Shown piece after piece: positions 2,827 through 24,881 of a stretch of DNA of 64,000 nt (positions are counted from its first letter, which is position 1; every line of letters begins with the position of its first letter). Under the pieces are notes generated by a model. That model did not search any database. It was not told the origin of the DNA and saw nothing but the letters and a program-made list of their open reading frames with translations. The stretch is from Methylacidimicrobium sp. AP8 (GTDB taxonomy: Bacteria; Verrucomicrobiota; Verrucomicrobiia; Methylacidiphilales; Methylacidiphilaceae): NCBI RefSeq assembly GCF_903064525.1, contig NZ_LR797830.1:620001-684000 (forward strand), written 5' to 3'. The translations under genes were made by a program, and so were the position numbers.

Positions 2827-3358
2827 GGACCGCCGCGGCCCATAGGAGCGATCCGCCGCCTGCAACGGGCGTGCGCGATTCCGCTTACACAAGAAGTCTA
2901 TTTATCACAGTGTTCGTAAACGACATGCACGATGTCGATACAAGCAGGAGTTAATAAAAGCATGCCTATTTGCTATAAAAATGTCACAAACTTGTCACAA
3001 TGTTTTTTCGCGTGACCGTGCTACAAATAGTCTGTTCCGAAATCTTCTCTTCCGGAGGGCAAAAGCGGGCGGTCCCGGCAGTCGCCGTCCTTTCGCAGCC
3101 AAGAGGAAGAGCGGAGGAAGGTCCGTGGAGCCGAGTCCGGAAAGGGATGGGAGGAATGGAATCCATGCTGGCACTTTCGTCGCTGACCGTGAGACAGGCA
3201 CTTGGATGGCGACCGGCAGGAACCCGTTTTTTCCCGGCACCGAAGTTTTTCTAAGAAATGGGTGACCGGATTCGTTCCTTTCATTGGGCCTTGGGCCACT
3301 TTTTTTCGAAGCGATCCTCGATCAAAAGAAAGGAAATCAGCAAAACACGGAGCATGCG
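2827..3358. other. 532-nt intergenic region with promoter and long leader
   Basis: No convincing gene. The first 90 nt after the pump are featureless. An inverted repeat (CGACAT, 5-nt loop, ATGTCG) lies at 2921-2937, followed by an AT-rich PHO-box-like promoter at 2971-3027. The remaining roughly 330 nt up to the next start would be an unusually long 5' leader. It contains a small GGCC-TTG-GGCC hairpin at 3287-3297 followed by ACTTTTTTTT (3298-3307), which could be a weak attenuator. Short open frames here have no family-like sequence and no good ribosome site. Confidence 0.5.
2971..3027 (+). promoter_or_regulatory. PHO-box-like promoter A
   Basis: Two perfect half-sites TGTCACA at 2982-2988 and 2993-2999 lie 11 bp apart, flanked in register by weaker TGCTATA (2971-2977) and TTTTTCG (3004-3010). 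A -10-like TACAAA occupies 3022-3027, 22 bp after the last good half-site, the same spacing as in promoters B and C. The 7+4 bp direct-repeat layout is that of PhoB-type (OmpR-family) sites. It would drive the secreted repeat protein and the membrane protein after it. The regulator itself is not in the window. Confidence 0.65.
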
Positions 3359-5269
3359 ATGAAACAGCGGAATCGATGGAACCGGAACCGGTGGCTGATC
3401 ACCGGGCTCTCTTGGCTCTGCGCAACTCCTCTTGCGGTTCTTCATGCGGAGGGAACAGCGGCGGACGCCGCCGCGGGCCAGGCGCAGAGCGCGTCCCGGC
3501 TGAGGGAACAAGCGCAGGTTTTGCAGGATCAAGCCAGCGGCAATCAAGGCCTCGCTCAAGGCTACGAAACGGCGGCCGCCCTGGAAAAGGCGGAGGGTCA
3601 TCCGCAACAGGCCGAAATCGATCGGATGCGGGCCGCCCACCTGGAAAACAAGGCGAAGGCCGAGGATGCCCAGGCGCTGAAGGATATGCGGGAGGCTAAC
3701 AACAAGCGGGAAACCAAGGAGTCCAAGGATCACCGGGCAACGGGTAGCCAAGGGAGCGCGCCGGGAGGAAAAGCAACGAGCGCGAGCGAAAGCGGCAGGG
3801 TCGGGAGCGGCGCCGGCGGCGGAAAGGGCTCCGTGGCGTCCGGAAGGGGTCAGACCGCAGCCCAGCTGAGGAGCCAGGCTGCGGCTTTGCAGCAACAGGC
3901 GGCAGGCCTCGAGAAGCGGGCGCAATACTGGCAACAAAGAGGATGGCTAGAGGGAGTATTTTATTATCATGGCGACGTCTCGGACAATCCCGCCGACAAG
4001 TGGGCTGCCCACCTGGAGAAGAAGGCGAAAGCCGATGAGGCTCAGGCGCAGAAGGACATGCGGGAAGCCGAGGCCTCCCAAGGTCGTTCGGCGGCTGGCG
4101 GCCGGGGCGGCGCCGGCGGCGGAAAGGGCTCCGTGGCGTCCGGAAGCGGGCAAGCCGGAAGCGGCACGGAACGTGGGAAGTCCGGAGGGAACACCGGACA
4201 CGCGGGCGGAGCGGGAAGCGGCGGCGGCCGGGGAGGTAGTGCGCCGAGCTGGGCGCTGCGGGACCGTGCCGAAGGGTTGCAGCAGGAGGCGCAGATTCGC
4301 GAGGCGCGGGCGCAGTGGGACAACGCGATGGCCCGGTACGAGGCGTCCCAGGGGCACATGAACCAGGCGGAGCTCTACCGGGATGAAGCCCGGCGGCAGG
4401 ATCAGCTGGCGCACCGGGAGGACCGGCAGGCGCTTCGGGACTGGAACCGGTCGGAAGGCGAGGGGAGCCGTGGTGGTATCACCGGGAGCGGAGCGGGAAG
4501 CGGCGGCGGCCGGGGAGGTAGTGCGCCGAGCTGGGCGCTGCGGGACCGTGCCGAAGGGTTGCAGCAGGAGGCGCAGATTCGCGAGGCGCGGGCGCAGTGG
4601 GACAACGCGATGGCCCGGTACGAGGCGTCCCAGGGGCACATGAACCAGGCGGAGCTCTACCGGGATGAAGCCCGGCGGCAGGATCAGCTGGCGCACCGGG
4701 AGGACCGGCAGGCGCTTCGGGACTGGAACCGGTCGGAAGGCGAGGGGAGCCGTGGTGGTATCACCGGGAGCGGAGCGGGAAGCGGCGGCGGCCGGGGAGG
4801 TAGTGCGCCGAGCTGGGCGCTGCGGGACCGTGCCGAAGGGTTGCAGCAGGAGGCGCAGATTCGCGAGGCGCGGGCGCAGTGGGACAACGCGATGGCCCGG
4901 TACGAGGCGTCCCAGGGGCACATGAACCAGGCGGAGCTCTACCGGGATGAAGCCCGGCGGCAGGATCAGCTGGCGCACCGGGAGGACCGGCAGGCGCTTC
5001 AGGACTGGAACCGGTCGGAGCATCCCCACTTGGGGAGCGAGAGCCGAGGCGGTGAGCTAGGGTCGGAGTCCGGTCACCCCCATCTTTCGCGGGTTGCGGC
5101 GGAGCATCCCCATTTGGGCTCGGCAGCCGGATCGAGCGGACATCCTCATCTTCATGCCGCCGGCGGCAGGGGGATGGAGCGGCATATGCATGCGTCTCGC
5201 GTGCATGCGGCGCATGTGCATGCTTCCCACGTCCATGCCGCGCACTTTCATGGCGGAGGCAGGAGATAA
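3359..5269 (+). CDS. secreted repeat protein with histidine-rich C-terminal tail (unknown function)
   Basis: Not a family I recognise. Start chosen at ATG 3359 because it gives a clean signal peptide (basic n-region, hydrophobic core, likely cut after Ala30) and CGGAG precedes it. The mature 606 residues are built of helical, Gln/Glu/Arg/Ala-rich modules joined by Gly/Ser linkers: two diverged modules (about residues 40-115 and 165-240), then three virtually identical 94-residue modules (about 284-554). The last 82 residues hold 18 histidines, mostly HPHL and HxH patterns, suggesting metal binding (Zn, Ni or Cu class) by composition only. First gene of a two-gene unit under a PHO-box-like promoter and closed by a strong terminator. 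Could be a periplasmic or surface metal chelator or an envelope spacer. Confidence 0.8.
   Translation: MKQRNRWNRNRWLITGLSWLCATPLAVLHAEGTAADAAAGQAQSASRLREQAQVLQDQASGNQGLAQGYETAAALEKAEGHPQQAEIDRMRAAHLENKAKAEDAQALKDMREANNKRETKESKDHRATGSQGSAPGGKATSASESGRVGSGAGGGKGSVASGRGQTAAQLRSQAAALQQQAAGLEKRAQYWQQRGWLEGVFYYHGDVSDNPADKWAAHLEKKAKADEAQAQKDMREAEASQGRSAAGGRGGAGGGKGSVASGSGQAGSGTERGKSGGNTGHAGGAGSGGGRGGSAPSWALRDRAEGLQQEAQIREARAQWDNAMARYEASQGHMNQAELYRDEARRQDQLAHREDRQALRDWNRSEGEGSRGGITGSGAGSGGGRGGSAPSWALRDRAEGLQQEAQIREARAQWDNAMARYEASQGHMNQAELYRDEARRQDQLAHREDRQALRDWNRSEGEGSRGGITGSGAGSGGGRGGSAPSWALRDRAEGLQQEAQIREARAQWDNAMARYEASQGHMNQAELYRDEARRQDQLAHREDRQALQDWNRSEHPHLGSESRGGELGSESGHPHLSRVAAEHPHLGSAAGSSGHPHLHAAGGRGMERHMHASRVHAAHVHASHVHAAHFHGGGRR
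4208..5020 (+). repeat. three tandem 282-bp in-frame repeats
   Basis: Copies at 4208-4489, 4490-4771 and 4772-5020 (the third is shorter, diverging where the His-rich tail begins). Sequence identity is nearly total; the visible difference is a G-to-A change in copy 3 (CGG to CAG). The unit is exactly 94 codons, so copy-number change keeps the frame. Identity at silent positions indicates recent duplication or ongoing homogenisation. Confidence 0.95.
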
Positions 5270-5326: not shown

Positions 5327-6895
5327 ATGAGCATGAGGAATCGCCTGGCGGGTGTTTCCAAAATTTGGAGTCCAAATCCCCGCAGGGTCGTTTTGCTGGA
5401 TCCGGAGAACTCATCGGCGACGGCTCCGCACGGGGAGGCGGCCGGAGCTGACGGCGGCCGGCAAGCCGCTAAAAACGGTGTTAGGGCGAATGGAGAGGGG
5501 GCATCCCCGTCCGAATCGTTGGTCCCGTACGGCTCGGGTTCGGTCGAGCCGGCATCGGCTCCGGAACCGCGAGCAAGAAGGGGTCGCGGGCTCCTGCTTC
5601 TCTCCCTCGGCGGGGGGATTCTTCTGGCTGGCGGCTTGGCGACCGTCGGCTTCACCAGCTGGGTGAACCATCTGCAGGTCCCGGGGTCGCTCGCGGACGA
5701 GGAGTATCATGCCTACGATCGAACGGTCGCCCAGTACGAGAAATGGAGAAAGGAAATTCTCGACCGGATCAACGGAGGCGGTGACGGCGCGGGGGCGGCG
5801 AAAAAGCTCGGCAGGATCGAGGCGAAAGTGCATTTCCCGCCGGAAGAAGCGGTCCATGCGTGCTTGCGGAGGCACCTTCCCGGTGATGTGTCGATTATCT
5901 CGATCGAGCCGGTCGCTTACCGATCCGTCGGGAACGCCGAAGAATTGGACTATCGGGTGACGGTCGAGTCGGCGGTCGATCTTTATGTCGTTCCGGCTCT
6001 GGCCGCGCCGGGACCGCCGGAAAATGCGCCCGGGCTAGTCAAGGAAGTCTGGCCCGATCTGCTGTGGGACGCGACGCTGCCTCCGGGGATGGAGTTTAAA
6101 GCCGGCGAGAAAGACCGCTACTTGCTCGCGAAGGCGGATCAGAAGGTATCGTTTCTTTGGAAGATCGAGAAGGCGCAGGTCGTCGACGGGAAATGGCGGA
6201 TTCAGCGCGTTGCGCCCCCTCTCCTGGAGTGGAGCAACGGCTTTTTTGCCGCCGGGTTGGACAATGCGCTGCGGGGAGGCGGAGCCATTCCCCCCTTATT
6301 CCTCTGCCGGAGCAAGGATCTTGAAGAGTATTCCGCTTCCTTCGAACGGTGCCTGGCGGACCTGCACAGCAGGTATGACGCCATGGAGGCGGACGTCGCC
6401 CAGGCAAGAAAGGAGCTCGGAGGGGAGGTGACCAAGGCTCCGAAAGGCATCCGGAAAGGAATCGACCTGGCGGCAGTGCGGCGAGCCCGTTCCGAAGGCT
6501 TTCAGCAGGGAATGGAGGAGGGCGGGTATGCGAGCGACGCCCTTTCCAATTTGGAAGGCACCACCCGCACAGGAGTCATCCCATGGCTCGAAACGGTGAC
6601 TCCCTTCGTTGGTGGTCTGGTTCATAGCAAGAAGGCGGAAAAAGAGGAGATCGCCAGGCAGCGCGCGGCGGCAAGAGCGGAATATCGAGCGCAGTGGGCG
6701 AGGCATATCCGGGAGCTCAAGGAAGCCGAGCAAAAGGGCAATCAATATCAAGCACAGCAGGAGTCCCGGTTCGTTCAGTACTATCGGGATCTTGCTGACC
6801 AGAGGGTGTCGGATATTCGCCGATTCATCCAGAAGACCGCCGTTGCCGAAGATGCAGCGGGCGGAGCGAGGAACCATCGTTCTCTGAGCAACTGA
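5327..6895 (+). CDS. single-pass membrane protein, unknown function
   Basis: 522 residues with no recognised family. ATG 5327 follows a strong AAAGGAGG site. Layout: a disordered, Ala/Gly/Ser/Pro-rich N-terminus of about 85 residues; one transmembrane segment around residues 88-110 after an arginine cluster; a mixed alpha/beta region (about 120-400) with a DYRVTVESAVDLYVVP strand segment; and a Lys/Glu/Gln/Arg-rich probable coiled coil near 435-500. This predicts a cytoplasmic N-terminus and a periplasmic body. It follows the His-rich repeat protein by 57 nt and shares its terminator, so the two are likely co-expressed and may interact. Confidence 0.8.
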   Translation: MSMRNRLAGVSKIWSPNPRRVVLLDPENSSATAPHGEAAGADGGRQAAKNGVRANGEGASPSESLVPYGSGSVEPASAPEPRARRGRGLLLLSLGGGILLAGGLATVGFTSWVNHLQVPGSLADEEYHAYDRTVAQYEKWRKEILDRINGGGDGAGAAKKLGRIEAKVHFPPEEAVHACLRRHLPGDVSIISIEPVAYRSVGNAEELDYRVTVESAVDLYVVPALAAPGPPENAPGLVKEVWPDLLWDATLPPGMEFKAGEKDRYLLAKADQKVSFLWKIEKAQVVDGKWRIQRVAPPLLEWSNGFFAAGLDNALRGGGAIPPLFLCRSKDLEEYSASFERCLADLHSRYDAMEADVAQARKELGGEVTKAPKGIRKGIDLAAVRRARSEGFQQGMEEGGYASDALSNLEGTTRTGVIPWLETVTPFVGGLVHSKKAEKEEIARQRAAARAEYRAQWARHIRELKEAEQKGNQYQAQQESRFVQYYRDLADQRVSDIRRFIQKTAVAEDAAGGARNHRSLSN

Positions 6896-7072: not shown

Positions 7073-7184
7073 TGTCACACATCTGCCACGGGTTCGTAAT
7101 AAAGTCGTCACGGAAATGGCAATGAACCGTCACAGAAATGTAACGACATTGTAACAACCGGTTCCATTCCGGCCGTGCTATAGA
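7073..7184 (+). promoter_or_regulatory. extended PHO-box-like array and promoter B (eight 11-bp-phased half-sites)
   Basis: Half-sites in perfect 11-bp register: TGTCACA 7073, TGCCACG 7084, CGTAATA 7095, CGTCACG 7106, TGGCAAT 7117, CGTCACA 7128, TGTAACG 7139, TGTAACA 7150 (ends 7156). A -10-like TATAGA (7179-7184) follows after 22 bp, replacing any -35 element, as at activator-dependent PhoB promoters. Three or four units are strong and the rest weaker. Together with the terminator at 6925 this accounts for the 406-nt space before the receptor gene, leaving a leader of about 110 nt. Confidence 0.72.
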
Positions 7185-7301: not shown

Positions 7302-10187
7302 GTGAGGAGGGATAGCGGCATCATAGGTTCGATTCGGAGTGTCTATATCCGACGGTTTCTGTGCTTTGTGCTGGGAATGCTCCTCGCGAGCCTTTCTATG
7401 CCGCTGCGGGCGGCCGACCCCTCGGTGGAGCCCGCTTCCCCCCTGGGCAGCGGGGATGCGGATACGGGGGGCAGCGGTCTCACCGGAGGCCCCGGATCCT
7501 GGGACCGGAATCCGGTGGAGGGGAACGGGTCGGGAAGCGGGGACGCACTCGGCGATGGCTCCTCGCACAAGCCGCTGGAGGATATCTTGCGCAATCAGCC
7601 TCTTTTGGCCGACGCTTCCAATGCCCTGAAGGAGGGGAGCGCCGCAGCCGATCCGGCACCCGATTCGTCCTCTTCCCCATCTTCTTCCTCTTCGCCGGCG
7701 CTGGTCAATCCCGGCACCGGAAAGGTCGTGATGCCGGAAACGCTCGTGACCGCCAACGAGCAGTCGGTTCTCCCCGGGGACTACGACATCAGCTCGGTTT
7801 ACGGCACACCGGTCAATATCGTCGACACGCCTAGGAGCGTCCAGGTCATCACCCAGCAGGAAATCCAGTCCTCCGCGTTCATTTCCCAAAACGTCATGTC
7901 AATGATGTACATGGCGCCCGGCCTCTACATGGGGACGACCTTCGGCGAGTTCTCGGTGCCGAACATCCGAGGCATGCCGGCCAACAAGTACATCAACGGG
8001 ATGCTCTCTTTCTTGCCTGGCACCGGCTACGAAGGGGGGCCGATGAACATGAACGACTTCGACCAGATCAACATCGTCCAGGGGCCGACGATGCCGAGCC
8101 TGCTCTCGATCCGCGCGGCGGGCGGGTATCTGGACATCCAGACCAAGCGCCCCTACTGGGACGGCTTCCACGGGACGGCGACGGTCATGGAAGGGATGTA
8201 CGACCAGAATCTCTGGCAGGCCGACGTGGGCGGCCCGATCAACGACAAGCTCGCGTTCCGGTTCAGCTACCTGGGGAACTACTCGGGGAACTATTACGAC
8301 AACGACTACCTGCATAACCAATCCTTCTACACAGCCCTCTCCTTCAAGCCGTACGACAACTACGAGCTCTTCTTCAACAATTCGTTCTACACCGAAGGCT
8401 ACAACGAGATCGGCGGGATCAACCGGCCGACCCAGGAGCTGGTTTCGGATCATGAGTATCTTTCCGGCTATATACCGAATATTTATTTAGGTCCGCCGCG
8501 CTACGTCGATCACCATAAAGTCAACTACAATATCGGTCCGGAATTGTACAATTACGGGGTGTCGGTGCTGCCGCAATATTATGATACGCTGCGCTATGTC
8601 CCGCTCTCGGCGATCGGCGGATATCGGGCCAATTTGCTCAACCCGGGTTCGGGGGGCTACGTCGAAAGCGAGCGGGCCCAGGTCATCCAGCGGGTGAACG
8701 TAGACGACGGCTTCCAGATCGTCAACAATACCAACTTCGAGTATTTTTCCTACAACTACCAGAATTTTACGCCCTATAATATCTACACTCCGGGCTCCTG
8801 GGTAGCCCAGAACAACACCTCGTTCATCCTGAACTTCGACACCCCGATCGGCGGGGCTGCCGAAGGCGGACAACAGGAGAACCCGAGCCTGGCCGACCGG
8901 AAGAATCCTCCCTTGAAGGACGAGGCTTTTCCTATCCATCACACGGTCAATGTCGGGTTCGAGACCGACTATGCCAACATGATCGTCTACGAGGGCGACT
9001 TCGAGCAGGTGTTCAACGTCTGGAACATGGGGCCGCTGGCCAATGCGGTCTATCCCTCGTATTTTCAATACAACCTGCCGGGCATGCCGTGGTTCAGCAA
9101 GTATCTGTATCAAGACGTGCCGATTCCGGGCCGACCCGGGCAGGTGTTCAACCCGGGCAACTTCAGCTCGACCGATTCCGAGACCTGGTACTTGCGGCCC
9201 TACTGGCAGCACCAGATTGACTTCGGCAAGCACTTCTCGATTTTCATGGGCGCCAGCGCGCTGGCCTTGATGGCGACCGCGCAGAATCCCGTAGGCACGC
9301 CCGGCACCTACTTCGACTTCGGCGAGGCACTCCATCCGGGGGGACAGTACTTTTCCACCGTCATCCCGAACTTCGACTTCAGTCCGCGCTGGAAGCCGAA
9401 CGAGTGGACGACGGTCTATTTCGATTTTCAGCAGGCGTGGCTAGCCGAAACGGGAGCTTTTTACGGCGTCTCCCCCTTGACGAGCAACTACAACCTTCAC
9501 CTCCATCAGCGACTCTACAGCGGGGGGATCAACTTCAGCTTGCTCAATGGCAAGCTCAATATCTTGACCGCCGCCTTTGACCAGGAGTTCCAGGAATTGG
9601 AAAGCTACAAAAAAGTGCTTCTGGTCCCGGTTCCGATCGACGTGGTGGGGGGCACCCTACAGGTGAGCTATCAGCCGGATCGGCATCTCTGGCTCGTCGC
9701 CAACGCTTCCTACATCTTGGGCACGTTCGACTATGCTTCTCCGCTCACCACAGGCCCCAGCATGGACCAGCCATACCCGAGCAACTACGTTTTGAACAAT
9801 CCGGGAAAGTACGCCTTCGACAACTTCGGCTACTTCCCCCAGGGTACATACAACTACGTGGGCTGGCCCAACTTCCAGACCTCCTTCATGGCGACCTACA
9901 CGCTCGATTGGGGATTGGGCTTCTTCGCCTCCTTCAACGCGACGAGCCCGCAATATCTTGCCTACGATTACCTCGTCCGGATTCCCTGGCAGTACACCCT
10001 CAATTTGGGCATAAGCTACACGAGCCCGGATAAGCATTGGGTAGGGAGGCTCTGGGTCTGGAACGTGACCGACCAGCACAACTGGATGACGAGCGGCAGC
10101 GGATACGCGACATCGTTCAACAATTACGACGAGCTCATGGTCTCCTGGCCTTTCTGGATACAGGGACAGATCAGCTATCAATTTTAG
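7302..10187 (+). CDS. TonB-dependent outer-membrane receptor 1
   Basis: 961-residue outer-membrane gated channel for energised uptake of a ligand too large for porins. Start GTG 7302 after GGGAGGG gives a signal peptide with core FLCFVLGMLLASLSM, cut near residue 37. A low-complexity Gly/Ser/Pro linker follows, then a TonB-box-like PETLVTA (about 145-151), the plug (YGTPVNIVDTPRSVQVI onward, with NIRGM and the IVQGP segment) and a long Tyr/Asn-rich beta barrel ending in the C-terminal Phe that directs barrel assembly. It resembles the receptor at 14045-16777 in plug and barrel landmarks, including similar WPFWI C-termini, so they are probably paralogues. Substrate not readable. The PHO-box promoter and downstream phosphoesterase favour a phosphorus source; a metal chelate is the alternative. 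Confidence 0.92.
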   Translation: MRRDSGIIGSIRSVYIRRFLCFVLGMLLASLSMPLRAADPSVEPASPLGSGDADTGGSGLTGGPGSWDRNPVEGNGSGSGDALGDGSSHKPLEDILRNQPLLADASNALKEGSAAADPAPDSSSSPSSSSSPALVNPGTGKVVMPETLVTANEQSVLPGDYDISSVYGTPVNIVDTPRSVQVITQQEIQSSAFISQNVMSMMYMAPGLYMGTTFGEFSVPNIRGMPANKYINGMLSFLPGTGYEGGPMNMNDFDQINIVQGPTMPSLLSIRAAGGYLDIQTKRPYWDGFHGTATVMEGMYDQNLWQADVGGPINDKLAFRFSYLGNYSGNYYDNDYLHNQSFYTALSFKPYDNYELFFNNSFYTEGYNEIGGINRPTQELVSDHEYLSGYIPNIYLGPPRYVDHHKVNYNIGPELYNYGVSVLPQYYDTLRYVPLSAIGGYRANLLNPGSGGYVESERAQVIQRVNVDDGFQIVNNTNFEYFSYNYQNFTPYNIYTPGSWVAQNNTSFILNFDTPIGGAAEGGQQENPSLADRKNPPLKDEAFPIHHTVNVGFETDYANMIVYEGDFEQVFNVWNMGPLANAVYPSYFQYNLPGMPWFSKYLYQDVPIPGRPGQVFNPGNFSSTDSETWYLRPYWQHQIDFGKHFSIFMGASALALMATAQNPVGTPGTYFDFGEALHPGGQYFSTVIPNFDFSPRWKPNEWTTVYFDFQQAWLAETGAFYGVSPLTSNYNLHLHQRLYSGGINFSLLNGKLNILTAAFDQEFQELESYKKVLLVPVPIDVVGGTLQVSYQPDRHLWLVANASYILGTFDYASPLTTGPSMDQPYPSNYVLNNPGKYAFDNFGYFPQGTYNYVGWPNFQTSFMATYTLDWGLGFFASFNATSPQYLAYDYLVRIPWQYTLNLGISYTSPDKHWVGRLWVWNVTDQHNWMTSGSGYATSFNNYDELMVSWPFWIQGQISYQF

Positions 10188-10210
10188 TCGATTTTAGGAA
10201 AGGAGATTCT

Positions 10211-10810
10211 ATGATCCGAGCCATGCGGACGGCGTCAGGCTCTATCCGGCTCTTCCTGGCGGTGGGCTCGGTCATTATGGGTGGAAGCGTCCCGGAGGGC
10301 TCGGCGGCTGCCCAAGCCGCCGGGGCGGGCCAAGTGGCCGTGGCCCCGCAGATGATTCTGGGTGCCAACGGCGAGGGCAGGAAGGCGCAAGAGCTTTTGC
10401 AGGCGGGCCGCCCGGCCGAGGCGCGGGCCGCAGCGGAAAAGGATCTCCAAACCTCGATCGCGCGATCCGGCTTCAGCGCCTTCGGCAACATGGTGCCCTA
10501 CAACAACCTCGGCGTCGTCTACACGGCCGAGGGCAGGTATGCGGAGGCGCACAAGATGTTTTCCCGGGCGATCGGGCTGGGGAAGGCGGCGCTCAGCCAA
10601 GCACAGATGGCCGCCGGCTACAGCGGAGGATCGACCTACACGCAGGCGGGGGCGGGTGCCGGCACAGGGGTGGCGGTGCAGAAGAAGATCCTGGCCCTCT
10701 GTCTCTTCAACAATAGCATCGCCTACCGGAAGGAAGGCGACCTCGCGAAGGCCGCACGTTTTCAGGCGGATGCGCGGAAGCTCGATCCCGCCTTGCCCGA
10801 GTGGAAATGA
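10211..10810 (+). CDS. small exported TPR-repeat protein
   Basis: 199 residues. ATG 10211 is chosen because AGGAAAGGAG lies just upstream and the receptor ends at 10187; the frame is open further 5' only by chance overlap. A probable signal peptide (about residues 1-35) precedes two or three TPR-like helix pairs (NNLGVVYTAEGRYAEAHKMF; NNSIAYRKEGDLAKAARF). Probably a periplasmic scaffold for the receptor or the phosphoesterase. Its stop overlaps the next start as ATGA, implying translational coupling in the order receptor, TPR, phosphoesterase. Confidence 0.82.
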   Translation: MIRAMRTASGSIRLFLAVGSVIMGGSVPEGSAAAQAAGAGQVAVAPQMILGANGEGRKAQELLQAGRPAEARAAAEKDLQTSIARSGFSAFGNMVPYNNLGVVYTAEGRYAEAHKMFSRAIGLGKAALSQAQMAAGYSGGSTYTQAGAGAGTGVAVQKKILALCLFNNSIAYRKEGDLAKAARFQADARKLDPALPEWK

Positions 10811-13689
10811 TCCGCTCCCATGGGATGCCGGTGTCCGGGAAATGTTTTCCCTCGCGGGGAAAAGGGTTGCGGAGGCTGCGGCTCGCGGTCGTCGCGGGGG
10901 CTGCCTGTCTGGCCGCTGCGGTTTCCGCAAGAGCCCGTCCGCCGGAGGGCGCTCCCGAGGGCGCCTTCCTTCCGACCGGGGTGCGGATCGATCTTTCGCC
11001 GATTCCTGGCCTGCGCCTAGATCCGCTCTACCTGGCGAAGGGAAAGACGAAGGTCCCGGTTTCCGGGTCGTTTGCCATGGCGGCGAGCCCGGCGGGCGGT
11101 GCGCTGGCGGTGGTGAGCTCGGGCTACAACCTCTGGTTCGGCTTCGACGGAAAGCCGGTTCCGGAGCTCTCCCACGAGTCCGTCTTTGTCTTCGACATTT
11201 CCCAGGGGGCGCCCAAGCCGGTGGCTGTTCTCCCGCTCCCGAACTCCTTTTGCGGGATCGACTGGAATCCGGACGGGAAGGAGTTCTACGTCTCGGGCGG
11301 GGGAGAGGATCGGATCTATGCCTTCGCAAGAAAAGGAGATACGTGGGCGCCCTCCCGTCCGCCGATCGCGCTGGGGCACGAAAAAGGCAACGGGATCGAG
11401 ACGAAGCCCGTGGCTGCCGGACTTCGCGTCGATCCGGAGGGGAAGCTCCTGCTCGTCGCTAACTACGCCAACGACTCGGTCAGCCTCGTCCGGTTGACCG
11501 ATGGAAAGAAGGTAGCCGAGCTCGACCTGCGTCCCGGGAAGATCGATCCCAAGGACAGGGGACTCCCCGGGGGCGAGTATCCAATGGATGTCGCTTGGGT
11601 GGGAAAGGGGAAGGCCTATGTCGCCAGCCTCCGGGATCGGGAGATCGTGGTCGTCGGCATGGAAGCCGAAACATTACGTTGCTTGGGCCGGATTCCGCTC
11701 CAGGGGCAGCCGAACCGGATCGCCGTCGATCGGGATCGACGCCGAGCCTATGTGACCGAGGATAACTCGGACCGGATCGCGGTGATCGAGACGGAGGCCG
11801 ACCGGCTTCTGGAGGCGATTCCTTCTGTTTCCGAGCCGGGTTCGGGCCGGCCGGGGAAGTCCCGCAAGGGGGCCTCTCCGAACAACCTCTGGCTCGATCC
11901 CTCGGGGCGGCTCCTCTATGTCACCAACGGCGGAATGAACTGCGTCTCGGTGATCGAGCTGGGCCCTAAGGCGCGGGGGGTCGCAGGGGAGGTGCCGGAA
12001 GATGGAGCGGAGGCGAGCAGCAGGGTCGTGGCCCTGATCCCGACCGGATGGTATCCGACGGCCGTGGCCTGCGATGGACGCGGAAGCCGGCTCTATGTGG
12101 CGACCGGGAAGAGTGTGACGGGACCGAACGACCGGGGATTCGGCCGGCCGCTCCCGCCTCCGGAGGAGCTCGTCAAGGTCTGGAGGTCGAAGAACGAATA
12201 TATCCTCCAAAAAACGGCCGGAACTCTGCAGAGCTTCCCGCGGCCCGATCCGGCGGACTACGCGCGCTTGACCGAGACCGTATGGAGGAACAACCGGCGA
12301 ATCGGCGCCGCAGCGGGGGATAAGGCCATTCTGCAGATGCTGCGCCGCCGGATTCATCACATCCTGTACGTGATCAAGGAGAACCGTGGATACGACCAGC
12401 TCTTCGGCGATTTGCGGCGCGGGGACGGCGATCCCGACCTGGCGATCCTGGCTCCTTACTGCCCCAACGAGCGGCGGCTGGCCGAGCGGTTCGTCCTGTT
12501 GGATCATTTCTTCTGCAGCGGGGAGGTGAGCGGGGACGGCTGGAACTGGAGCACGGAGGCCCGGGCGACCGATATCATCGAAAAGACCGTTCCCCTCCAT
12601 TATGCCCATCGTGGGCCTACCTACGATTTCGAGGGCGACAACCGGAACATCGCGGTGGGAATCGGGACCATGGCCCAGAGGAAGGAAGCGGACCCCGGGC
12701 TTCCCGACGATCCCGACCTCTTGCCGGGAACCCGGAGCGTGGCCGCACCCGACGGCTCCGAGGGAGAGGTCGGCCTCGGCTATCTCTGGGATGCGGCGCT
12801 GCGGAAGGGCATCACCGTGCGGAATTACGGGTTTTTCGGCGATCTCACCCGCTACCATCTGCCCAAGGAGGATCCTGCCTTCCTCCCCTTATCGCGGCAT
12901 CCTTTTGCGGAGAGGATGATCCAGTTCTTTCCCGCCAACCCCACGCTGGCCAAGGTGAGCGACCTCTACTACCGCGGCTTCGACATGAAGTACGCCGACT
13001 ACTGGCGGTACAAGGAGTGGGAACGCGAGTTCGACGACTATGCGCGGAAGGGGAATCTTCCCGCCTTGGAGCTGATCCGCCTTCCCCATGACCACTTCGG
13101 CTCCTTCCGGGAGGCTGCCGACAAGGTCGACACGGTCGAAGCGCAGATGGCCGACAACGACTATGCGGTGGGGCTGCTGGTGGAAAAGGTTGCGCGCAGC
13201 CGGTACAAGGATGACACCCTGATCTTCGTGATCGAGGACGACGCGCAGGCCGCGGCGGACCATGTCGACGCCCACCGGAGCATCGCCCTTGTGGCGGGCC
13301 CCTTCGTCAAGCAGGGAGCCGTCATCCGCCGGAGGTTCACCACGGTGAGCGTGCTGAAGACGATCGAGGAGATCCTCGGCTTCGGGCCTCTCTGCTTCTA
13401 CGACGAGGGAGCCGAGCCGATGACCGACCTCTTCGATCCGGCAGCGTCGAGCTGGAGCTACCGGGCGGTCGTTCCCGCCGCCCTGCTTCAGACCGACCTT
13501 CCGGTCGGCGGGAAGAAAGGCGCGGGGGCCGGCGCCCGCCACGATTCCGCGTTTTGGGAGAAGCTCTTGGGCGGCCAGGACTTTTCGGACGCGGACCGGC
13601 TCGATTCGGAGCAGTTCAATCGCGCCTTGCGGTTCGGCTTGTCCGGACGGCGGAGCTCCCGGCCGACCTTCCGCGAAGCGGGGGAGTAA
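10807..13689 (+). CDS. YVTN beta-propeller / alkaline-phosphatase-superfamily phosphoesterase
   Basis: 960 residues, exported (hydrophobic signal segment about residues 20-45). The N-terminal half (about 60-480) is a YncE/YVTN-type beta-propeller with repeated segments such as GKLLLVANYANDSVSLVRL and GRLLYVTNGGMNCVSVIEL. The C-terminal half is a PF04185-type phosphoesterase: the IHHILYVIKENRGYDQLFGD entry motif near 514-533, and IEDDAQAAADHVDAH near 805-820 carrying Asp/His metal ligands. Such proteins hydrolyse phosphate esters or phospholipids. ATG 10807 overlaps the TPR stop (ATGA); GTG 10801 is a less likely start. In this operon it probably releases phosphate from organic esters outside the inner membrane, possibly on ligand delivered by the receptor. 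The exact substrate is not readable. Confidence 0.88.
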   Translation: MIRSHGMPVSGKCFPSRGKGLRRLRLAVVAGAACLAAAVSARARPPEGAPEGAFLPTGVRIDLSPIPGLRLDPLYLAKGKTKVPVSGSFAMAASPAGGALAVVSSGYNLWFGFDGKPVPELSHESVFVFDISQGAPKPVAVLPLPNSFCGIDWNPDGKEFYVSGGGEDRIYAFARKGDTWAPSRPPIALGHEKGNGIETKPVAAGLRVDPEGKLLLVANYANDSVSLVRLTDGKKVAELDLRPGKIDPKDRGLPGGEYPMDVAWVGKGKAYVASLRDREIVVVGMEAETLRCLGRIPLQGQPNRIAVDRDRRRAYVTEDNSDRIAVIETEADRLLEAIPSVSEPGSGRPGKSRKGASPNNLWLDPSGRLLYVTNGGMNCVSVIELGPKARGVAGEVPEDGAEASSRVVALIPTGWYPTAVACDGRGSRLYVATGKSVTGPNDRGFGRPLPPPEELVKVWRSKNEYILQKTAGTLQSFPRPDPADYARLTETVWRNNRRIGAAAGDKAILQMLRRRIHHILYVIKENRGYDQLFGDLRRGDGDPDLAILAPYCPNERRLAERFVLLDHFFCSGEVSGDGWNWSTEARATDIIEKTVPLHYAHRGPTYDFEGDNRNIAVGIGTMAQRKEADPGLPDDPDLLPGTRSVAAPDGSEGEVGLGYLWDAALRKGITVRNYGFFGDLTRYHLPKEDPAFLPLSRHPFAERMIQFFPANPTLAKVSDLYYRGFDMKYADYWRYKEWEREFDDYARKGNLPALELIRLPHDHFGSFREAADKVDTVEAQMADNDYAVGLLVEKVARSRYKDDTLIFVIEDDAQAAADHVDAHRSIALVAGPFVKQGAVIRRRFTTVSVLKTIEEILGFGPLCFYDEGAEPMTDLFDPAASSWSYRAVVPAALLQTDLPVGGKKGAGAGARHDSAFWEKLLGGQDFSDADRLDSEQFNRALRFGLSGRRSSRPTFREAGE

Positions 13690-13877: not shown

Positions 13878-13945
13878 TGGCACCGTTTTGTCACAGAAAT
13901 GTCACATGTTTTTCACAACCGTTTCGTTGGCGCTTACGGTATAGA
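13878..13945 (+). promoter_or_regulatory. PHO-box-like promoter C
   Basis: Half-sites in 11-bp register: TGGCACC 13878, TGTCACA 13889, TGTCACA 13900, TTTCACA 13911 (ends 13917). TATAGA lies at 13940-13945 after 22 bp, identical in spacing to promoter B. It sits in the 355-nt space 13690-14044 between the phosphoesterase and the second TonB receptor. The rest of that space shows no gene; an in-frame 5' extension of the receptor runs through it without a credible start. Confidence 0.7.
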
Positions 13946-14044: not shown

Positions 14045-16777
14045 ATGAAACGCGAGGTGTCAGTGACCAAACGACGAGGTTTTCGGCCGGCCGGGCTGTG
14101 GATTATCGCTTCGGCACTCGTGATCGGAACGGTCCGCGCGGACGAGGCAAATCCCGCCGCAGCCCCGACGGGCAGCAGCTCGGGGACGGGCGAAACGGCG
14201 GAGAGCGGCCAGGCACCCGTCAGCGGGAGCGGAAAGGCGAAGCAGTCGGGATGGGAGGGGATCGTCCAGCAGACCGAACCGGAAAAGAAGCAGAAAAAAT
14301 CGCCGACCGGCGACGTGCAGATGCAGGAGGTGACCGTATCGGGGGAAGCCGAGTGGACTTCCCCTGACCTGACCTCGGGCGAGCCCAACGCCCCGATCCT
14401 GCCGACGACGGCCCCGGTGGTCTCGACCTTCGGGACGCCGATCAACGTGATGGATGCGCCGCGGCAGATCACCCCGGTCAATCAGACGCTGCTGCGGACG
14501 TCGGGAGCACTCTACCAGGGGTATATGGATCCGCTCTCGATCTCCTCCATCCTGCCCACGGCCTATACGGAGCTCAACTGGGGCATGGGCAACTCGGTGA
14601 CGATCCGCGGCCGCCAGGCGCTCCCCTACATCAACGGCATCGAGATGACCCTCCAGAATGACGCCATGCAAGGCGTGCCCTTTAGCTGGAACATGGTCGA
14701 AAACATGGACATCCAGGAAGGCCCGGCGAACGCGGTCTTCGGGGCCACTCAGGCGTCGACCGGCAGCGTCAACTACATCACCAAGCAGCCCTACTTCGAC
14801 AAGTTCCGAGGACGGGTCTGGGACACGACCGGCATGTACCAGCAGTACCTCTGGGGGGCGGACATCGGCGGCCCGGTCGACAAGGAGGGCAAGCTGGCAT
14901 GGCGCTTCTCGTACATGGGCCAGGAGCAGGGGAGCTACTACCAGTACATGTACAACGATCAGCAGAACTTCTACTTCACCGTCGGGTGGAAGCCTACCGA
15001 TAACTATTCGGCCAACTTCTACGGCGACTATGGGATGTACGATTTCTATCCCGAGCTGGCCGACTTGATGAACCGGCCGACCAACCAGCTCATCCAAAAC
15101 GGGTTGTATCTCCCCGGCACAGTGCCCGGATTTCCTTTCACGGTGGCCCAGGGTGGACCGGCGACCGGCTCGGCGATCAATCCCCCGTTCAACACCTACG
15201 CGCAGTCGCCCGTCGGGATCAATCGGCGGGCTACCATCTGGAGCCCGTACGGAGGCGGGAACGCCAACAACGGTTTTGCCCAGCTCGTGCAGACGGTGCA
15301 AGTCAACGACGACCTCCAGATCGTGAACAATTCTTTCCTCTGGTACACCAAGACGGAATGGCTCGAGCCGCAGCTCTATGCCATGCAGTATACTCCGGGA
15401 GACTATGAGTTCGATAACCGGACCGAGGTTCGGTGGACCTTCGATCCGCTCGCCAGCGAGCCCGAGAAGCCCAAGACGAAGGAGGAACAGGGGCTGGAGA
15501 ACGTCTTCGGCAAGCTTCTGCTCAAGAGTTCGGTCGACACAGGTGTCGAATGGCACTACGAGTACCATGACGACTATTTCTCGGAGAGTGCTTGGGCCTA
15601 CGGCAACTCTTGGAGCCTCGTCGATCCTTTGAATCCCGCGTTTGCCAACCCGGCGCTCTTCTATTTACCCGGCACCAAGCAGTTCAACAGCTTCATCAAT
15701 AACCCGAAGGCCGCCTTCGGAGGCCTTTGGCATGTGCCCGGCGCTCCGGCGAACTACTTTTACGAGCCGCTGAACGGAGCCTCGGGAAGCACCTTCGGTC
15801 ACTACTGGTCGGTCGCGCCCTTCTGGCAGCACAACCTCCAGATCACCGACAAGTTCGCGCTCTACTTCGGCGTCCGGGCAACCGCGTACTTCTGGGACTT
15901 CACGACTCCGGAAGGACCGGCCGGCATGCCGCAGATTCCCGGAGTGACGACCGCGAGCCTGCAGCAAGCTTCGCTGGCCCCGCTTATCAACATCAGCCCT
16001 ACCTATAAGCCGTTCGATTGGATGACCGCCTACTTCAACTACAACTGGTCCTACGTGAACAACGTGGCGGTGATCGGCGGGGCGGCACCAACGTTCGATG
16101 CCGCCTCGTTCCGGCTGCTGAACCAGTTGATCGAGGGAGGCCTCAAGTTTAACCTGCTCAACGACAAGCTCTTTATTACCGCTGCGGGCTTCACTCAGGA
16201 TCAGCAGCTGAACAACCTGGGATTGCCGCCGACTCCCGCCACCATCACCGGATACGAGGTCAACCTCGCATACCAGCCGGATAAGCACTGGTGGGTGCGC
16301 GCCGGCTACATCGACATGCACGGTGTCGAAAACTGGACGGCGCTCACGCACGGCCCCAGCATGCGCCAGGACTACTCCACCGCATTCGCGCTGCAGCAGG
16401 CGTTGGCGCTCAACACCAACTTAGGCCTTCCTCCGGGGATCTACAATATGATCGGCTTCCCGGAGCAGTATGCGAGTGCGACGATCACCTACACCTCGGA
16501 TATCGGTTTAGGCGGGACGATCCAAGGGATCGTGATGAGCGATCAGTATCTGGACTACTTGGGCAGCGCCAAGATCCCGACACAGTACATCTTGAACGCC
16601 CAGATCTTCTACGTGCAGCCGAAGTGGGAGGCGCGGCTCTACCTCTATAACTTCACGAACAATAACTACTGGCTGCCCTTCGGCTTGGGTTCGGCCGGAA
16701 GCCGCGCGTTTAACGAAAGCTCGATCGTCGCGGGATGGCCCTTTTGGATCGAAGGGAACGTAGTCTTCAAGTTCTAG
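14045..16777 (+). CDS. TonB-dependent outer-membrane receptor 2
   Basis: 910 residues. ATG 14045 is preceded by GAGGAGGAAGAGG and gives a signal peptide cut near VRA-DE; the open frame upstream crosses the promoter and is not coding. After a Ser/Gly/Lys-rich linker come a TonB-box-like MQEVTVSG, a plug (FGTPINVMDAPRQITPVN, SVTIRGRQALPYINGIEM, IQEGPANAVFGATQAS) and a Tyr/Asn/Trp-rich barrel ending in Phe. Shared motifs with receptor 1 (NRPTNQL against NRPTQEL, GGPV/GGPI strand, WPFWIEGN end) indicate a diverged paralogue. Control by PHO-box-like promoter C groups it with the phosphate-starvation genes. Ligand unknown. Confidence 0.92.
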   Translation: MKREVSVTKRRGFRPAGLWIIASALVIGTVRADEANPAAAPTGSSSGTGETAESGQAPVSGSGKAKQSGWEGIVQQTEPEKKQKKSPTGDVQMQEVTVSGEAEWTSPDLTSGEPNAPILPTTAPVVSTFGTPINVMDAPRQITPVNQTLLRTSGALYQGYMDPLSISSILPTAYTELNWGMGNSVTIRGRQALPYINGIEMTLQNDAMQGVPFSWNMVENMDIQEGPANAVFGATQASTGSVNYITKQPYFDKFRGRVWDTTGMYQQYLWGADIGGPVDKEGKLAWRFSYMGQEQGSYYQYMYNDQQNFYFTVGWKPTDNYSANFYGDYGMYDFYPELADLMNRPTNQLIQNGLYLPGTVPGFPFTVAQGGPATGSAINPPFNTYAQSPVGINRRATIWSPYGGGNANNGFAQLVQTVQVNDDLQIVNNSFLWYTKTEWLEPQLYAMQYTPGDYEFDNRTEVRWTFDPLASEPEKPKTKEEQGLENVFGKLLLKSSVDTGVEWHYEYHDDYFSESAWAYGNSWSLVDPLNPAFANPALFYLPGTKQFNSFINNPKAAFGGLWHVPGAPANYFYEPLNGASGSTFGHYWSVAPFWQHNLQITDKFALYFGVRATAYFWDFTTPEGPAGMPQIPGVTTASLQQASLAPLINISPTYKPFDWMTAYFNYNWSYVNNVAVIGGAAPTFDAASFRLLNQLIEGGLKFNLLNDKLFITAAGFTQDQQLNNLGLPPTPATITGYEVNLAYQPDKHWWVRAGYIDMHGVENWTALTHGPSMRQDYSTAFALQQALALNTNLGLPPGIYNMIGFPEQYASATITYTSDIGLGGTIQGIVMSDQYLDYLGSAKIPTQYILNAQIFYVQPKWEARLYLYNFTNNNYWLPFGLGSAGSRAFNESSIVAGWPFWIEGNVVFKF

Positions 16778-21505: not shown

Positions 21506-21576
21506 CCGGGGGGGACAGTGCGACAAACTTGACAAGTCGGCAAAATGTTTCTTATGTGCCTGCACTCTTTCTCACG

Positions 21577-22512
21577 ATGATCTCGGTCGAAAACCTGACC
21601 AAAGAATATGCGGGATCCCGTGCGGTGCAAGGGATCTCCTTCGCCGTGCAAAAAGGAGAGATCGTTGGGTTCCTGGGACCTAACGGCGCCGGCAAGACGA
21701 CGACGATGCGCATCCTGGCCGGATACCTGCCCCCGACGAGCGGCAAGGTCGTTGTCGCCGGCCATGACGTCGTGGCGGAGTCCCTGGAAGCGCGCCGGCA
21801 CATCGGCTACATGCCGGAAAACGTCCCCCTCTACACCGATCTCCGGGTCAACGAATACCTCGCCTACCGCGCCCGCCTCAAAGGAGTCAAAGGAAAAAAA
21901 GTGAGAGAGAGGCTGGAGGCGGTCAACCGTCTTTGCCATCTAGAGGACGTAAAGAATAAAATCATCGGCAAGCTGTCGAAGGGCTACCGGCAACGTGTCG
22001 GGCTGGCCGACGCCCTGGTCCACGAGCCCGATCTCTTGATCTTGGACGAACCGACGATCGGCTTGGACCCGCACCAGATCCGGGCCGTCCGTGACTTGAT
22101 TCGATCCTTAGGCGATCGTCACACCATTTTGCTTTCCAGCCATATTCTGAGCGAGGTGGAGGCGGTTTGCACCCGGGTGCTCATCCTCCATCGCGGGAGG
22201 ATCGAAGCCTCGGACACGGCCGAAAATCTCGCTCGGATGGTGCGCGGAGGCGGACTGGGAGCAATTCGGGTCGAGGTTCTTTGTCCTTCGGAGGCGGGCC
22301 GGCGGGAGTTTTCGCGGCTGCCCAACGTCGAGGCGGTCCACTGCCGGGAAGAGCGGGAGGGGTGGTCGGTCCTGGAGATCGCTCCGAAGGCCGGCAAGGA
22401 CATTCGGGACGAGGTGTTTTCGGTCGTTCAGAAGCAAGGCTGGCGTCTTCGGGAAATGTCTCGTTTACGGGCTTCCCTGGAGGATATCTTCGTGGAGTTG
22501 ACGCAGGATTGA
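21577..22512 (+). CDS. GldA-like ABC transporter ATP-binding protein
   Basis: 311 residues; ATPase of an ABC-2 type exporter. ATG 21577 (MISVENLTKEYAGS) matches the family start better than the open frame from 21529. Walker A GPNGAGKTTT, signature LSKGYRQRVGLADAL (LSKGY variant typical of GldA/CcmA-like ATPases), Walker B LLILDEPTIGLDP and switch His in LLSSHILSEVE are all present. A C-terminal extension of about 90 residues resembles other gliding-type ATPases. First gene of a four-gene operon. Confidence 0.9.
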   Translation: MISVENLTKEYAGSRAVQGISFAVQKGEIVGFLGPNGAGKTTTMRILAGYLPPTSGKVVVAGHDVVAESLEARRHIGYMPENVPLYTDLRVNEYLAYRARLKGVKGKKVRERLEAVNRLCHLEDVKNKIIGKLSKGYRQRVGLADALVHEPDLLILDEPTIGLDPHQIRAVRDLIRSLGDRHTILLSSHILSEVEAVCTRVLILHRGRIEASDTAENLARMVRGGGLGAIRVEVLCPSEAGRREFSRLPNVEAVHCREEREGWSVLEIAPKAGKDIRDEVFSVVQKQGWRLREMSRLRASLEDIFVELTQD

Positions 22513-22636
22513 TCCCGCGGCGTCGCGCCACGAAGGAGGGGCGCAGCCGCCCGTCCTTCCGGAAAAAGCGGAATACGATGGATATCATTGGCGCGGCGGA
22601 GCCGTCGCGAGAACAGGAGCAAAAGGAAAGCTGATC

Positions 22637-23386
22637 ATGGCACTTTGGGTTCTCACCCGGCACGAGATCCGGAGCTTTTTCATCTCCCCGACCGCGTACA
22701 TCGTCCTATTCGCGTGCGCGGTGATTCACGGGCTCAACTTCGCCTTCTGGCTCGAGTACATAACAAGCAATAACATCAAGGACTTCACCCTGCTGCAGGC
22801 GACGGTGAACTCTTTTTTCTTCTGGTTCCTCCTCCTTATTCAGGCGCCGGTGCTCACCATGCGGAGCTTCGCGGAGGAGAACCGGTCCGGCACCATCGAG
22901 ATGGTCTTGACCGCACCCGTGCGGGAGTGGGAGCTGGTTCTGGCCAAATTCATCGGCGCCATGAGCTTCTTTTGCGTGCTCTGGCTTCCGCTGGCCCTCG
23001 ACTTCCTCGGGTTGCGTATCCTTTGGGGGCATCCGTTGGGAAGCAGCGGCAGCATGGAGCTGCTCTCCGTGCTCATGCTGCTCCTTCTGGGCAGCCTCTT
23101 CCTGGCCATCGGAATTTTCGCCTCCTGCTTGACGCGGAGCCAGATGGTCGCAGCGATCCTGGCCTTCGGCTTCATCTTCGCGGTCTTCTCTCTCTCTTTC
23201 GTCGTCTACCTGGGATTGATCGGCCAAACACGGGATCTGGTCACCTATTTTTCCTTCTTGGATCAGATGGATACGTTTTCCCGCGGCATCTTCGATTCTC
23301 GGCCTCTGGTCTTGACCATTTCGAGCACGATCTTCTTTCTCTTTCTCACCGAACGCGTCCTCCAGTGGCGACGGCTTCGTTCTTGA
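22637..23386 (+). CDS. GldF-like ABC-2 transporter permease
   Basis: 249 residues, six predicted transmembrane helices, with the conserved RSFAEENRSGTIEMVLTAPV segment after TM2 typical of ABC-2/GldF permeases. AAAGGAAAG lies just upstream of ATG 22637. It pairs with the preceding ATPase (124-nt gap) to form the membrane channel. In Bacteroidota the equivalent is needed for gliding; in other phyla the same set occurs without gliding and its cargo is unknown. Confidence 0.9.
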   Translation: MALWVLTRHEIRSFFISPTAYIVLFACAVIHGLNFAFWLEYITSNNIKDFTLLQATVNSFFFWFLLLIQAPVLTMRSFAEENRSGTIEMVLTAPVREWELVLAKFIGAMSFFCVLWLPLALDFLGLRILWGHPLGSSGSMELLSVLMLLLLGSLFLAIGIFASCLTRSQMVAAILAFGFIFAVFSLSFVVYLGLIGQTRDLVTYFSFLDQMDTFSRGIFDSRPLVLTISSTIFFLFLTERVLQWRRLRS

Positions 23387-23396
23387 GCGCCCGTTC

Positions 23397-24872
23397 ATGA
23401 AGACTCCTTCCGCTCCTCATCCGCTGCGCCTGCAGCTCCGGCTCAACAATGCTCTGACGATCGTCTTGTCCATCGCCATCCTCGTGATGGTGAATTACTT
23501 AGGGTATAAGTACTACTACCGGCAGGACTTTTCGAAGAGCGGCTACTACCAGCTTTCCGAGAAGACGGTGCATATTCTCCGCTCGCTGCCCGAGCCCGTG
23601 CGGGTGACCGTTTGCCTTGTCAACAACTCCCCGCTCCGGACGGAGATCGATAATCTTCTCCGACAGTACAAGTACGTGGCCGGCGATAAGCTCCAGCTGG
23701 AATACGTCGATCCGGCCCTTCACCTGGATCGAGCGGAAGCTCTGGCGAAGCGGCTCAAGTTCGACCTGCGGGAAAATGTGGTGATCTTCGAATATCGCGA
23801 TCGGCATAAGTTCATCAACGATAAGGATATAGTGGACTATGACATGAGCGGGGCCATGTTCGGGCAAGCCCCCCGGATCAAGGCCTTCAAGGGAGAGCAG
23901 CAATTCACGGCCGCCATCCTATCCTTAATCGAAGGAAAGCTTCTCAAAGTCTACGTGACCACGGGCCACGGCGAACGGGAATTCGGCAACATGAGCGCCC
24001 CCGGCGGATACGGCGAGATCGACCTGCGCATCCGCCGGGAGAACGTGGAAACGATCCCGCTTGACCTCGGAGAATTTCCGTCGGTTCCGGCCGATGCGGA
24101 CGCGGTGATCGTCGCCGGTCCAAAGGTTCCTTTCCGGCCTGCGGAAGCCGAAGCGATTGCGAAATATGTCGAAGGGAAGGGGAAGCTCATTCTCCTGCAA
24201 GGTGCGGAGAGCGTTTCCGGACTCGAGCCGCTGCTGGCCAAATACGGAATGCGCCTGGATAATGATCGGGTGATCGCGCTCGGGAAGCTCGGAGGGATGA
24301 CGGGGGAAGTGCTCATTACCACCGCGCTCGGCACCCGCTATGCGGATCATCCGTCGGTCCGCGGGCTCCAGGGGTTGAGCCTGCAGATGCCGGATGCCCG
24401 CTCTCTGAGCCTCGTCCCGGGAAATGCCAACGCCTCGAAGGTGGTTTCCTTGGTGCAAACGCCCGAAGCTTTTTGGGGAGAGACCGATCCGAAGGAAATC
24501 GCCGAGCAGAATCCGAAGCGGGATGCCGGCGCCGACGTTCCCGGGCCGCTCACTCTCGCGATGCTCTATGACGGAGGGGAGGTCCCGGGCCAGGGGATTC
24601 ACGTCATCGGAACCCGGATCGTTGCGATCGGATCTTCGGCGTTCCTGGTCAATCAATATATCGACGGGGTGGGTGTCGACTTCTTCTTGAACGTCCTCAA
24701 CTGGATGCTGAAGAGAGAGATGGCCTTGGGAATCTCCCCCAAGGCGCCTCAGGAGTTCTCGCTTGCGATTCCTCAATTTCAGAGGCAGGCGGCGAACAGC
24801 TTTGCCTTAGGGCTCATTCCCTTGGCTTGCGCCCTGATCGGGGTCGGCGTCTTCTTCGCGCGAAGGAAATAG
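23397..24872 (+). CDS. GldG-like ABC-associated membrane protein
   Basis: 491 residues. N-terminal helix (about 20-40), a large extracytoplasmic region of the ABC_transp_aux type (VRVTVCLVNNSPLRTEIDNLL; KVYVTTGHGEREF; DADAVIVAGPKVPF; GKLILLQGAE), and one C-terminal helix ending in ARRK. This matches GldG, the soluble-domain partner of GldF. It starts 10 nt after the permease and ends 9 nt before the DUF4340 gene, so all are one transcript. Confidence 0.88.
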   Translation: MKTPSAPHPLRLQLRLNNALTIVLSIAILVMVNYLGYKYYYRQDFSKSGYYQLSEKTVHILRSLPEPVRVTVCLVNNSPLRTEIDNLLRQYKYVAGDKLQLEYVDPALHLDRAEALAKRLKFDLRENVVIFEYRDRHKFINDKDIVDYDMSGAMFGQAPRIKAFKGEQQFTAAILSLIEGKLLKVYVTTGHGEREFGNMSAPGGYGEIDLRIRRENVETIPLDLGEFPSVPADADAVIVAGPKVPFRPAEAEAIAKYVEGKGKLILLQGAESVSGLEPLLAKYGMRLDNDRVIALGKLGGMTGEVLITTALGTRYADHPSVRGLQGLSLQMPDARSLSLVPGNANASKVVSLVQTPEAFWGETDPKEIAEQNPKRDAGADVPGPLTLAMLYDGGEVPGQGIHVIGTRIVAIGSSAFLVNQYIDGVGVDFFLNVLNWMLKREMALGISPKAPQEFSLAIPQFQRQAANSFALGLIPLACALIGVGVFFARRK

Positions 24873-24881
24873 GCACGGCTC

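Follow-up and report, generated by a model that had tools for sequence, protein, structure and literature searches.

Upstream of a TonB-dependent receptor gene of Methylacidimicrobium sp. AP8, eight heptamers resembling TGTCACA follow one another every 11 bp (array 1, Table 1), and related arrays precede further genes of TonB-dependent uptake in this genome and its relatives. We consider it probable, at roughly 60%, that such arrays carry a cooperative PhoB-type chain, most likely of the genome's own PhoB homologue, which activates TonB-dependent uptake. What we infer from the sequence is which regulator binds, that it does so cooperatively as a chain, that it activates and does not repress, and that phosphate starvation is the signal. 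All positions refer to the window, that is, the whole stretch of 64,000 nucleotides that was analysed, unless a genome position is given.

Direct reading and a score far above chance bore out the description in the initial annotation of TGTCACA-like heptamers in unbroken register from 7073 to 7150, and the 22 bp it counted from the last heptamer to TATAGA proved exact. The units are degenerate, with four to seven of seven positions matching TGTCACA, but their register is nonetheless perfect. The geometry is that of OmpR/PhoB-type operators, with 7-bp direct repeats in a single orientation, 4-bp linkers and a fixed distance of 22 bp to the predicted promoter. No TTGACA-like -35 element was seen 17 bp upstream of the hexamer at 7179. 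The eight units scored 38.6 with a matrix whose only source was pstS sites in other bacteria, as against a highest eight-unit score of -0.9 on both strands of six simulated 2.3-Mb genomes, and among periods of 8 to 14 the score was positive at 11 alone. A candidate ninth unit, GTTCCAT at 7161, scored negatively and was dropped.

Table 1. Features of the window discussed in the text
Feature	Position	Strand	Remarks
Array 3	2971..2999	+	TGCTATA, TGTCACA, TGTCACA at 2971/2982/2993; before ORF 3284
Array 3 -10-like hexamer	3022..3027	+	TACAAA; gap 22 bp
ORF 3284	3284..5269	+	282-bp tandem repeats, His-rich C-terminus
ORF 5327	5327..6895	+	next gene after ORF 3284; no Pfam match
Array 1	7073..7156	+	eight heptamers in one register, period 11; upstream of TonB receptor 1
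Array 1 unit 1	7073	+	TGTCACA; 7/7 matches to TGTCACA
Array 1 unit 2	7084	+	TGCCACG; 5/7
Array 1 unit 3	7095	+	CGTAATA; 4/7
Array 1 unit 4	7106	+	CGTCACG; 5/7
Array 1 unit 5	7117	+	TGGCAAT; 4/7
Array 1 unit 6	7128	+	CGTCACA; 6/7
Array 1 unit 7	7139	+	TGTAACG; 5/7
Array 1 unit 8	7150	+	TGTAACA; 6/7
Array 1 spacer	7157..7178	+	last heptamer to -10-like hexamer, 22 bp
Array 1 -10-like hexamer	7179..7184	+	TATAGA; TGC ahead, extended -10 by inspection
TonB-dependent receptor 1	7302..10187	+	plug domain PF07715
TPR protein	10208..10810	+	start uncertain; same frame as the ORF listed at 10037-10810
Phosphoesterase-domain protein	10801..13689	+	YVTN beta-propeller and PF04185
Array 2	13878..13917	+	TGGCACC, TGTCACA, TGTCACA, TTTCACA at 13878/13889/13900/13911; before TonB receptor 2
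Array 2 -10-like hexamer	13940..13945	+	TATAGA; gap 22 bp
TonB-dependent receptor 2	14045..16777	+	weak similarity to ferrioxamine/ferrichrome receptors

The operon proposed earlier for 7302-13689 stands, its genes for the TonB receptor, the TPR protein and the beta-propeller/phosphoesterase protein being contiguous and codirectional. When the phosphoesterase-domain protein was compared with the PDB by sequence, the beta-propeller was the sole part matched. The window contains two further arrays that the initial annotation did not mention, at 2971-2999 and 13878-13917. The true start of ORF 3284 probably lies further in, near 3360. Within this ORF, positions 4206-5019 hold 2.9 copies of the 282-bp tandem repeat with a 99% match, which encode protein repeats of 94 residues. 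Elsewhere in the window, at 21529-26687, genes for an ATPase, an ABC-2 membrane protein, ABC_transp_aux and DUF4340 proteins stand in a row as an ABC transporter cluster.

The complete genome, a single contig of 2.30 Mb designated G000, was searched with a three-unit pattern allowing up to three mismatches. Only the three arrays of the window and a site at 689436 were returned, all on the same strand, and control matches were zero. Searching with a model built of three to four units together with the gap added a TonB receptor site at 1569513 and, scoring lower, exbB-exbD-tonB at 2062190, an operon that has a two-unit site and whose tonB gene was recognised by eye from the sequence. By run analysis the site at 1569513 is a 12-unit array, longer than array 1. 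Genome-wide, such sites target TonB receptors, the exbB-exbD-tonB operon and proteins that are secreted or sit in the outer membrane. No comparable array turned up when the pst, phoU and phoBR loci and those of other regulators in the same genome were scanned. A two-unit site also lies on the minus strand at G000:1893060 (locus L181), followed by a promoter-like TTGCCT...TAAGCT, and a script found no ORF of at least 110 amino acids downstream of it.

Related promoters with 2 to 15 in-register units occur across the Methylacidiphilaceae, whose named members here include Methylacidiphilum sp. Yel and a Methylacidiphilaceae MAG. A five-unit pattern matched 7 of the 13 family genomes and its control pattern none. 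In these 13 genomes the sites precede several groups of TonB receptors, exbB, likely orthologues of ORF 3284 (in G002, G003 and G006, with the same promoter box), an outer-membrane protein gene and genes similar by eye to ORF 5327, which in G002 and G003 have boxes of their own. Likely orthologues of the 12-unit array comprise 15 units in G002, 14 in G003, G004 and G006, and 11 in G005 and G001, some of them weak. In the sister genus, g2, the region of receptor 1 carries runs of nine units in G007 and G009 (one unit weak) and of six in G011; the G007 run is separated from the receptor match downstream of it by about 1.4 kb, which makes its target less certain.

Some arrays of the family stand in other surroundings. 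Genus g2 has a three-unit array (loci L112, L114, L084 and L185) before a sigma-70-like gene, in which regions 2-4 are weakly matched; it is possibly a second tier of control. A four-unit array near G008:C70:11354 (L108, 2344-2383) has no clear target gene and a ParB-like gene nearby, and may belong to a plasmid or mobile element. Before TonB genes of G005, two and three copies of a roughly 200-bp block with a four-unit array are present (L065, 7317/7517 and 10804/11004/11204), and only the proximal copy has a -10 element at 22 bp.

The 22-bp gap to a (T/C)ANA -10 element is common to 26 predicted promoters, a set that omits the G002 site at a short contig end and is partly selected, since the last unit was picked by eye in a few cases (e.g. 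2993 and genus g2). In the hexamer 22 bp after the last unit, A occupies position 2 in all 26 and position 4 in 25, and the A of column 24 is invariant. Inspection revealed a second class of promoter with a TTG-type -35 element about 9-10 bp after the last unit, comprising the 12-unit array, the outer-membrane protein gene and pstS in family f4; the first two of these show no -10 element at 22 bp.

The reading of the motif as a PhoB site, put forward in the initial annotation, held in part. It is favoured by the 11-bp array of OmpR/PhoB type, by the same motif before pstS in related families and by a PhoB-like recognition helix; against it, pstS and phoB lack the motif in this genome, in the genus and, where testable, in g2. 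The enrichment near phosphate genes that had been expected within the genome itself is absent, because the upstream regions of its pstS and phoB are without the motif. In the genus and in g2, where the test was feasible (G003 yielded no phoB, and in G002 the gene is close to the end of a contig), these regions scored no better than shuffled sequence; the one exception was a marginal score for two units far upstream of the G011 phoB.

Elsewhere in the order, of 22 regions upstream of pstS, 7 held a two-unit site, compared with 4 of 616 control windows; five of the seven positives belong to one genus and two to family f9. G008, from the same family as the window, was tested apart from the 22 and makes an eighth case, which likewise shows the 22-bp gap. 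Counting G008, the pstS motif is present in three lineages of the order and absent from others. With the matrix built from pstS sites only, the three window arrays rank first. These sequence comparisons support identifying the motif as the order's PhoB site. They further suggest that the lineage of the window retained or acquired such sites at TonB genes and lost them at pst, an evolutionary order that we infer.

The genome encodes six OmpR-type DNA-binding domains and possesses pst and phoU genes. The candidate PhoB gene (G000:157.4-158.1 kb) adjoins that of a PhoR/PnpS-like kinase, and the top NCBIfam model of its product is PhoB, TIGR02154, at 239.7 bits, under the curated cut-off of 296.2. 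Its recognition helix reads RTVDTHIRRLR, compared with RTVDVHIRRLR in E. coli PhoB (1gxp), and the five other OmpR-type regulators differ from the PhoB helix.

Among the closest known systems is the E. coli pho box (TGTCAYA, 7+4), which has a near-identical heptamer and the same 11-bp head-to-tail period and is likewise near a promoter lacking a clear -35, with the recognition helix kept in the regulator here. It differs in having usually two to four units, compared with 8 here and up to 15 in relatives, and in its spacing, the last heptamer of phoA lying about 9 bp from the -10 rather than 22 bp; moreover, the motif here was not found before pstS or phoB of the genus. A Fur-type box, by contrast, is an inverted repeat, whereas the motif here is a direct repeat. 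Like array 1, the PhoP operators of Streptomyces coelicolor combine several core and degenerate 11-nt units per promoter, six at pitH2, and are filled as PhoP rises (PMC7866108), but with another heptamer, GTTCACC (PMC4415409), fewer units and other targets. Mycobacterium tuberculosis PhoP recognises a 7-bp motif, TCACAGC, with a strict 4-bp spacer, and its serial binding to three and four motifs was measured; the available part of that report describes no natural arrays of 8-15 units (PMC4832192). The PhoB regulon of Caulobacter crescentus contains various TonB receptors and phosphate-releasing enzymes or phosphatases and, unlike here, Pst, with no mention of long arrays in the portion of the account at hand (PMC11208175). 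Cyanobacterial Pho boxes are reported to have at least three tandem repeats (PMC1906773). The description of array 1 as unusually long in the initial annotation is supported: by a non-exhaustive survey of open-access literature, 8-15 units exceed the documented range of 2-6. No transcriptome of phosphate-limited Methylacidiphilum was found in the literature searched.

We propose that the array would act as a binding platform for a response regulator of the OmpR/PhoB family. One phosphorylated protomer would occupy each heptamer, and neighbouring protomers would join head-to-tail every 11 bp to form a chain. Since the end of that chain is fixed 22 bp from an extended -10 element without a -35, the last protomers would recruit RNA polymerase to the TonB receptor/TPR/phosphoesterase operon. 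Compared with two sites, eight may reduce the amount of regulator required, make the response sharper or longer in range, or do both; given the serial binding to three and four motifs and the gradual filling of Streptomyces PhoP operators, eight or more units should extend cooperative filling, with an output that may be sharper, more sensitive or higher. The operon would belong to a wider predicted regulon made up of TonB receptors, the motor encoded by exbB-exbD-tonB, and proteins that are secreted or located in the outer membrane. Judging from sequence, phosphate is the most likely signal, because relatives carry the motif at pstS and the operon includes a phosphoesterase gene.

With exbB-exbD-tonB in the predicted regulon, a metal signal is nevertheless a rival to be taken seriously. 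Another member of the OmpR family, or the PhoB homologue re-assigned to a new signal, might sense iron, copper, lanthanide or envelope state and thereby switch on TonB-dependent uptake. Such an arrangement would fit the targets (TonB receptors, exbB-exbD-tonB, an outer-membrane protein and a His-rich protein), the siteless pstS and phoB of this genus, the weak resemblance of receptor 2 to siderophore receptors and the choice of six OmpR-type regulators, and the 7+4 geometry is common to several members of the OmpR family (PMC4832192). We nonetheless judge it rather unlikely, as no regulator but the PhoB homologue has the PhoB recognition helix, related lineages have the same motif before pstS and a phosphoesterase-domain protein is encoded within the operon.

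It is less likely still that function rests solely with the two to four heptamers nearest the promoter, the units further upstream being for the most part inert relics of tandem duplication. The duplicated blocks of G005, whose distal copies lack a -10 at 22 bp, would agree with this, as would the degeneracy of some units and the existence of related promoters with two to four recognisable units. In five long arrays, however, the heptamer positions are conserved, notably G2 and A5, and the 4-bp linkers are variable (identity between adjacent units 0.49-0.78 for heptamers versus 0.29-0.45 for linkers), which argues against mere recent duplication, and the register is held over 8-15 units in several species. 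Some heptamers match the consensus at only four of seven positions, as a chance or compositional repeat with no regulatory role might; this we regard as extremely improbable, since the simulated genomes came nowhere near the observed score, a level that argues strongly against it, the control pattern had no match in 13 genomes, and spacing and targets are conserved.

Returning to the PhoB-type chain, a bolder version of it is possible, and we hold it tentatively: the Pho system of the Methylacidiphilaceae may have been rewired, its boxes having left pst and phoB and multiplied into natural in-register arrays of 8-15 sites, which would seed a filament of the response regulator that controls TonB-dependent uptake, with array length as an evolved gain control. 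The natural arrays of 2-15 units form a ready series for relating the number of sites to the threshold, steepness and ceiling of a two-component response, and the same series suits the question of whether OmpR-family regulators build filaments on DNA. In the host methanotrophs, whose nutrient uptake, lanthanides included, is poorly understood, the arrays suggest a lineage in which a box of the phosphate type was transferred from the pump for inorganic phosphate to TonB-dependent uptake.
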